From: Rhizobium sp. Q54 | Lineage (GTDB): Bacteria > Pseudomonadota > Alphaproteobacteria > Rhizobiales > Xanthobacteraceae | Length of the DNA: 64,000 nt | Reading direction: 5' to 3' | Assembly (NCBI GenBank): GCA_945870035.1 | Contig: CAMBQQ010000001.1 | Span: 23,809 to 87,808, forward strand | Shown here: piece after piece, positions 54,782-57,238 of the stretch | Numbering within the stretch: the stretch's first letter is position 1 | Layout: every line of letters starts with the position of its first letter | Made by a program: the position numbers and the translations under genes | The notes under the pieces: model-generated | The model's database searches: none | Seen by the model: the letters and a program-made list of their open reading frames with translations, nothing else | Told to the model about the DNA's origin: nothing

Positions 54782-55561
54782 ATGGTCGAAATCACGCTGC
54801 CGAAGAACTCCAAGGTCACCGAAGGCAAGACCTGGCCGCGCACGTCGCACGCCACCAACCTGACCGAGTTCAAGATCTACCGCTGGAATCCGGATGACGG
54901 CGCCAATCCGCACATCGACACTTATTATGTCGATCGCGACAATTGCGGCCCGATGGTTCTCGACGCGCTGATCTGGATCAAGAACAACGTCGACCCGACG
55001 CTGACGTTTCGCCGCTCCTGCCGCGAGGGCGTCTGCGGCTCCTGCGCGATGAACATCGACGGCACCAACACGCTCGCCTGCACCAAGGCGATCGACGACA
55101 ACAAGACGCCGCTCAAGGTCTATCCGCTGCCGCACCAGCCGGTGGTCAAGGATCTGGTGCCGGACCTGAAGAACTTCTACGCGCAATACGCCTCGATCGA
55201 GCCATGGCTGCACACCGTGTCGCCGACGCCTGAAAAGGAATGGAAGCAGAGCCACGAGGACCGCAGCAAGCTCGACGGCATGTACGAATGCATCCTGTGC
55301 GCCTGCTGCTCGACCTCATGCCCGAGCTATTGGTGGAATTCGGATCGTTATCTCGGCCCCGCCGCTTTGTTGCAGGCCAATCGCTGGGTGCAGGATTCGC
55401 GCGATGAGGCGACCGGCGAGCGGCTCGACAATCTCGAGGACCCGTTCCGGCTGTACCGGTGCCACACCATCATGAACTGCTCCAAGGCCTGCCCGAAGGG
55501 GCTCAATCCGGCCAAGGAAATCGCCACGCTGAAGAAGGCGCTGGTCGACAGGCAAGTCTGA
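54782..55561 (+). CDS. sdhB: Succinate dehydrogenase iron-sulfur subunit
   Basis: [43 protein letters not shown]. Confidence 0.99.
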
Positions 55562-55603
55562 TTTGCAAGTCTGATTTGCAAGTCTAATTTGCAGGTCTGA
55601 TCG
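55552..55603. repeat. 13-bp tandem repeat (about 4 units) at the sdhB stop codon
   Basis: GCAAGTCTGATTT GCAAGTCTGATTT GCAAGTCTAATTT GCAGGTCTGATCG. Confidence 0.9.
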
Positions 55604-55696: not shown

Positions 55697-56692
55697 ATGA
55701 CGATGACGATGCGAATGACGGTCCGCAACCTGGGCCTTTCTCTTCTGGCCGCCGCGCTGCTGACCGGGGCCATCGGGCGCCCGGCTCAGGCGCAGAAATA
55801 TCCCGACCATCCGGTGAAGATCGTCCTTCCGCTCGGCGCTGGCGGCGTCGGCGACATCACCGCGCGCATTCTTGCCGATAAGCTCGGCGAGAAAATGGGC
55901 GAGCGCTTCGTCGTTGAGAACATGCCCGGAGCGGGCGGCATTACCGCGATGCGATCCGTCATTGCGTCCCCCGCCGACGGTTATACTTTGCTGCTGGGAA
56001 CCGGCGGCATTGCCAGTTCCATCCCGCTTTACAAGCAGTTTCCGGTCGACGTCCTGAAGGACCTGACGCCGGTTTCGTCGCTTGGCTATTTCGATTGCCT
56101 TCTGGTCACCAATGGCGAGTCCGAGTTCAAGACGCTGGCCGACTTCCTGAAGGCGGCCAAAGCCAGCCCCGGCAAGCTCAATATCGGCACCATCAGCGCC
56201 GGCGGCGTCCAGAACCTGACGGCGAACTACTTCAAGCAGGCGGCCGGTATCGACGTCGTCGTCGTTCCGTTCAAGACCACGCCGGAAGCGGTTGTCGCGC
56301 TGTTGCGCAACGACGTCCATATGGTGATCGATTTCTACGCCGCGCTCAAAGGCAACGTGGCCGACGGCAAGTTGAAGGCTGTCGCCTGGGCCGGACCGAC
56401 TCCGTCTCCGGCGCTGCCCGATGTAAAAACCGCGGCGTCGCAGGGTGTGAAAGGCTTTGAAGCCAATTCCTGGAACTCGATCTACGTCAAGGCGGGAACG
56501 CCGCCGGCCGTGATCGAAACGATCAACAAGGCGATGCGCGAAGTCCTGAGCGACGCCACCGTCAAGTCCAAATTGCTTGCCCTCGGCATCGACTCGAAGC
56601 CCAGCACGCCGGCCCAGATGGACGCGCAGATGCGCGGCGACATCAAGAAGTGGGCCGAGGTGATCGAGAAGGCCGGCATCGCAAAGCGCTAA
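55697..56692 (+). CDS. Tripartite tricarboxylate transporter substrate-binding protein (Bug/TctC family)
   Basis: Signal peptide; YPDHPVKIVLPLGAGGVGDITARILADKL, VENMPGAGGITAM. Confidence 0.93.
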   Translation: MTMTMRMTVRNLGLSLLAAALLTGAIGRPAQAQKYPDHPVKIVLPLGAGGVGDITARILADKLGEKMGERFVVENMPGAGGITAMRSVIASPADGYTLLLGTGGIASSIPLYKQFPVDVLKDLTPVSSLGYFDCLLVTNGESEFKTLADFLKAAKASPGKLNIGTISAGGVQNLTANYFKQAAGIDVVVVPFKTTPEAVVALLRNDVHMVIDFYAALKGNVADGKLKAVAWAGPTPSPALPDVKTAASQGVKGFEANSWNSIYVKAGTPPAVIETINKAMREVLSDATVKSKLLALGIDSKPSTPAQMDAQMRGDIKKWAEVIEKAGIAKR

Positions 56693-56723
56693 ACGGTCCA
56701 CCGCGCGATCGGAACATTCGTAC

Positions 56724-56759
56724 CGTCCTCACGTTGTTTTAGCCAACAACGTGAGGACG
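56724..56759 (+). promoter_or_regulatory. Perfect 15-bp hairpin sequestering the Shine-Dalgarno of the downstream gene
   Basis: CGTCCTCACGTTGTT-TTAGCC-AACAACGTGAGGACG, then TC-ATG at 56762. Confidence 0.7.
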
Positions 56760-56761
56760 TC

Positions 56762-57238
56762 ATGGCCGACAACGATACCGATCGCGTCTGGGAACTGACG
56801 AAGAAAATTCCGATCTGCATGCTGTCCACATGGACGGGAAAGGAATTGCGCGCCCGGCCGATGGATGCGCGCGCCCGGCCGGACGAAAACACCATTTATT
56901 TCCTGACCGACGCGCGGCACCACAAGGACGATGAGATCGCGCAGTATCCGCAGGTGATGCTGGCCTTCGCCGACACCGACTCGATGAAATTCTTGTCGCT
57001 GTCCGGCCGCGCCATCGTCAGCAACGACCGCGCCAAGATCAAGGAACTCTGGGAGCCGACCGCGCAGGCGTGGTGGAAGGACGAGAACGATCCCAACATC
57101 CGGGTCCTGAAGGTCACCCCGACCGAAGCGGAGTTCTGGGATGGTCCCGGCAAGGTTGTCAGCATGGTCAAAATGATGATGGCCGCCGCCACCGGCAGCC
57201 GCCCGAATATCGGCGAAAACCGCAAGGTTTCGATGTAA
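56762..57238 (+). CDS. Pyridoxamine 5'-phosphate oxidase family protein (general stress protein-like)
   Basis: DRVWELTKKIPICMLSTWTGKELRARPMDARARPDENTIYFLTDARHHKDDEI. Confidence 0.87.
   Translation: MADNDTDRVWELTKKIPICMLSTWTGKELRARPMDARARPDENTIYFLTDARHHKDDEIAQYPQVMLAFADTDSMKFLSLSGRAIVSNDRAKIKELWEPTAQAWWKDENDPNIRVLKVTPTEAEFWDGPGKVVSMVKMMMAAATGSRPNIGENRKVSM

Follow-up and report, generated by a model that had tools for sequence, protein, structure and literature searches.

The closest counterparts of the site described here come from phage T4. Long early transcripts of its gene e (lysozyme) hide the ribosome-binding site, while transcripts from the late promoter lack the 5′ strand of the structure and are translated, a 100-fold effect, and the leaders of soc, 49 and I-TevI are of the same kind (PMC3014915). 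RNA thermometers and translational riboswitches also sequester the Shine-Dalgarno sequence (SD) in a hairpin, but there one RNA refolds, whereas here the start site would decide. The promoter side of the comparison is provided by EcfG, the general stress sigma factor of Alphaproteobacteria, also called sigma-T or RpoE2, for which GGAAC-N16-CGTT is the consensus (PMC3892343, PMC7083833).

In a 64-kb window, the whole stretch of DNA analysed, a gene for a PNPOx-like protein is preceded by a hairpin that covers its SD and overlaps such a motif (Table 1). We consider it reasonably probable that this site combines an EcfG general-stress promoter with a hairpin that serves as a translation insulator. 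EcfG RNA polymerase would bind GGAAC-N16-CGTT and initiate in the hairpin loop or at its right edge. The resulting stress mRNA would include the SD but not the arm complementary to it, and would be translatable. RNA reading through from sdhB-tctC would have both arms, form a very stable 15-bp stem and hide the SD, and housekeeping transcription would yield no stress protein. We propose that the hairpin works like that of T4 gene e, without claiming common descent: both have an alternative-sigma promoter, putative in our case, in the 5′ strand of a hairpin and, as expected here, a short transcript without that strand. They differ in that the sigma factor is the phage late factor gp55 in T4 but EcfG, on a bacterial chromosome, here; in addition, our stem is longer. 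In the limited collection of literature that we searched, we found no description of an SD-sealing hairpin built on an EcfG promoter and no paper treating PhyR, EcfG and pyridoxamine together. For SD hairpins combined with general stress promoters or read-through RNA, the review of T4 (PMC3014915) was the only relevant source in that literature.

Table 1. Features of the PNPOx-like locus, in window coordinates
Feature	Position	Strand	Basis or remark
sdhB	54782..55561	+	directly upstream gene in most Pseudolabrys relatives
tctC/Bug-type gene	55700..56692	+	upstream, co-directional; proposed source of read-through RNA
Putative EcfG-type promoter, -35 element GGAAC	56711..56715	+	sequence; same placement in orthologues
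Left arm of hairpin	56724..56738	+	overlaps promoter spacer and -10; expected to be missing from EcfG transcript
Putative EcfG-type promoter, -10 element CGTT	56732..56735	+	within left arm, 16 nt after -35; sequence, orthologues, published consensus
Loop TTAGCC	56739-56744		
Expected transcription start window	56740..56747	+	5-12 nt after -10; S. meliloti distance range (PMC3616915)
Right arm of hairpin	56745..56759	+	
SD GAGGA	56753..56757	+	in right arm, fully paired; predicted to be sealed only in read-through RNA
PNPOx-like gene, PF16242 (Pyrid_ox_like)	56762..57238	+	158 aa

The hairpin and the promoter motif that runs into its left arm

The hairpin at 56724-56759 (CGTCCTCACGTTGTT-TTAGCC-AACAACGTGAGGACG) has 15 perfect pairs and is followed by TC and the ATG at 56762-56764. 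An earlier, sequence-only reading had reported a perfect 15-bp hairpin with GAGGA, fully paired, as the only evident SD, and both observations hold. The 2 nt that it placed between the hairpin and the ATG also stand, but its interval ran on into the start codon (56762), past 56759, the last position of the hairpin. No perfect stem in the window is longer, and in 20 equally long first-order Markov sequences the maximum was 13 pairs. The 111-nt hairpin region has a folding energy of -51.8 kcal/mol (z = -6.7), and none of 200 shuffles was equally stable. Since a G+C-rich stem with a U-tract is what defines an intrinsic terminator, this identity was ruled out: TCATGG follows the stem in place of a U-tract, as had been remarked before, and the hairpin is not among the terminator-like sites of the window. 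A repeat element was ruled out as well, the hairpin sequence being single-copy in the genome with its own reverse complement as the sole further match. From the stop codon of tctC at 56692 it is 18 nt to GGAAC and 32 nt to the stem, and no terminator-like site was found between this stop and the PNPOx-like gene.

The motif GGAAC-N16-CGTT at 56711-56735, which the sequence-only reading had overlooked, runs into the left arm and is very probably an EcfG promoter. A lone match would mean little, because genome-wide the pattern GGAAC-N16/17-CGTT is no commoner than its backwards control (111 matches versus 135, an uninformative count); conservation is what counts. Among orthologues gathered from the genus, the family and named genomes, the exact motif was present at most 90 nt from the start in 82 of 105 distinct leaders, while the reversed motif was found in none and each of 20 shuffles gave zero. 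After refining the starts, enlarging the set to 131 distinct leaders and also accepting G at the first -10 base, the motif was found within 100 nt of the start in 115. Moreover, the genome encodes NepR, an adjoining PhyR-family regulator and an EcfG-like ECF sigma factor in one cluster. With GGAAC-N16/17-CGTT upstream of the gene and PhyR, NepR and EcfG encoded in the genome, the locus resembles the promoters of described EcfG regulons (PMC3892343, PMC7083833).

Promoter-to-start distances of 5-12 nt have been used for S. meliloti promoters, including those of RpoE2, its EcfG (PMC3616915). Applied here, this range would place the start of the EcfG transcript in the loop or no further than three bases into the right arm. 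A start at 56740-56747 would therefore leave the stress mRNA without the left arm, and, as both arms are present only in RNA from upstream, only read-through RNA would form the hairpin. The predicted probability that the SD is unpaired is 0.00 in an RNA beginning at 56600, taken as read-through, and goes from 0.77 to 0.28 in RNAs starting at 56740 to 56747, in some of which the SD is partly paired with downstream sequence. As for gene e, then, the SD is paired in the long RNA, and the position of the -10 element puts the promoter in the 5′ strand, with the start expected to follow from it. The sequence-only reading had suggested that translation may need the hairpin to open, and had named a start inside or downstream of the hairpin as telling against this; from the -10 element in the left arm, kept across orthologues, just such a start is expected. 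What stands of its view is that the SD would be sequestered in RNA entering from upstream, and not that the gene's own mRNA needs opening.

SD sealing in relatives

The genomes of the same genus carry the name Pseudolabrys (family Xanthobacteraceae) in GTDB records. Among their orthologue leaders, the stem is present and a terminator absent in L003 (the window), L005, L006 and L009, while in L004, L007, L010 and L011 such a stem is missing and sdhB is followed by a strong intrinsic terminator. Despite its terminator, L004 still has a rather sealed SD. In the four hairpin leaders, the bases opposite the SD belong to the promoter spacer and lie 3-8 nt upstream of where the -10 element ends. Compensatory changes in relatives, which had been proposed as a check in the sequence-only reading, were found in L005, L006 and L009. 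For example, L003 closes its loop with T-A, L006 with C-G and L009 with A-T, and lower in the stem a T-A pair of L003 corresponds to G-C in L009; loop lengths vary widely among the hairpin leaders. In L005 and L009, the -35 element GGAAC also pairs with a GTTCC just before the start codon, and the stem is mostly promoter sequence. The gene tree of the 11 orthologues is mostly unresolved, and it does not separate sealed from terminated Pseudolabrys loci as two supported clades.

Beyond the genus, sealing was expressed as the energy cost of freeing the SD in read-through RNA, compared with 200 shuffles per leader that retained the -35, the -10, the SD and all downstream sequence. Of 111 leaders, 37 lay beyond the 95th percentile of their shuffles (mean z 1.1), versus 21 of 141 ordinary genes at the same loci (mean z 0.23; Fisher p 0.0008); for two thirds of the leaders, sealing was not significant. 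For RNA begun 7 nt past the -10, no excess was left (z 0.14); at 9 nt it was negative, and at 5 nt some persisted (z 0.48). When left and right halves were exchanged between 50 leader clusters, the mean opening energy fell to 3.76 kcal/mol from 5.35 kcal/mol in the native leaders, and the native mean was not reached in any of 5000 permutations; the complementarity is therefore specific.

Sealing was found in 27 of 62 leaders behind a co-directional, unterminated upstream gene and in 9 of 46 behind a divergent or terminated one. The association has p 0.005 or 0.016 at the cluster level and p 0.03 or 0.10, depending on the clustering threshold, with Pseudolabrys left out; as the upstream classes were assigned automatically, the leaders are related and the hypothesis arose from part of the same data, we take it as support rather than proof, and as modest once kinship is allowed for. 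The divergent loci L173, L185 and L037 are sealed too. For most Bradyrhizobium leaders, the bases that pair with the SD are situated 5-10 nt downstream of the -10, and part of the left arm may persist in their stress mRNA. We tentatively suggest, as a possibility held with less confidence than the insulator at the window's own site, that in Xanthobacteraceae and beyond the leaders of this EcfG-regulated gene have repeatedly evolved promoter-embedded, SD-sealing hairpins that replace terminators behind co-directional genes, as a translation-level insulator through which only the transcript of the gene's own sigma factor would be readable.

In the window's own genome, seven candidate genes preceded by the motif were drawn from the first 30 matches listed, too few for generalising; three of the seven leaders (L153, L150 and L139) showed mild SD sealing relative to shuffles (p 0.02-0.035), and none was comparable to the hairpin described here. 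SD-sealing hairpins of quite different sequence were seen at the same place in L127, L105, L115, L012 and L185, that of L127 being GTTGTCGCTCC-agcacaat-GGAGCGACAAC.

Alternative explanations and implications

The main rival is a plain EcfG promoter whose hairpin reflects chance complementarity, or constraints on the -10 and SD, and plays no role in translation. We regard it as unlikely, while giving it real weight: the promoter evidence would by itself account for conservation of the left-arm core, and significant sealing is missing in most promoter-bearing leaders. The shuffle, swap and ordinary-gene controls argue against it, as do the 15 perfect pairs, more than in any random sequence tried, and the retention of the stem in L005, L006 and L009 with compensatory changes. 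A 3′ hairpin of the sdhB-tctC mRNA, acting as an exonuclease block or processing mark, would suit a structure 32 nt past the tctC stop, where an intrinsic terminator was not found, and could coexist with the insulator as a side effect. It would leave unexplained both the exact placement over the SD and the recurrence of SD complementarity elsewhere, including behind other upstream genes, and we judge it improbable.

That the inverted repeat over the -10 is a DNA operator, bound by a dimeric protein that represses the EcfG promoter, strikes us as very improbable. The long dyad does span the -10 and the expected start site, but it is single-copy in the genome, and its SD-complementary part recurs in leaders of otherwise unrelated sequence. 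The distance between the arms also varies widely among relatives, which disfavours an operator of fixed spacing; a DNA operator had been one of the options in the sequence-only reading. Least credible of all is that the mRNA of the gene itself holds a switch controlling the SD, whether a thermometer, a riboswitch or a protein-opened hairpin. In favour of such a switch, any RNA begun upstream of the hairpin would have its SD buried, but the -10 element lies within the left arm, and Rfam covariance models gave no match to 56500-57000 up to E = 1. Opening by temperature, one of the options raised earlier, appears unlikely, as even 80 °C leaves the SD 99% paired (0.989) in the model, which shows no melting in the physiological range. 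Similarly, opening by ribosomes from tctC, another of these options, is unlikely because they would halt at its stop codon, 32 nt short of the stem.

If the EcfG promoter does act as a translation insulator, the sigma factor's choice of start site would decide both transcription and translatability, and a compact genome could do without a terminator between a strongly expressed operon and a stress gene placed immediately after it. The T4 mechanism would then extend to a bacterial general stress regulon. It would also be prudent to check the 5′ arm of a hairpin for a promoter before a buried SD is called a thermometer or a riboswitch.

Several further observations concern the genes themselves. 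The window's own genome has a second PNPOx-like gene (L032, G000:C13:51813-52283), 44% identical and without GGAAC-N16/17-CGTT upstream. One Pseudolabrys genome carries two tandem PNPOx-like genes (L008, G043:C120:1261-2275), of which the downstream copy is the closer match and is without an EcfG promoter of its own. Finally, a tandem repeat with a 13-bp unit (GCAAGTCTGATTT) present in 3.8 copies lies at 55552-55601, across the end of sdhB and just before tctC.
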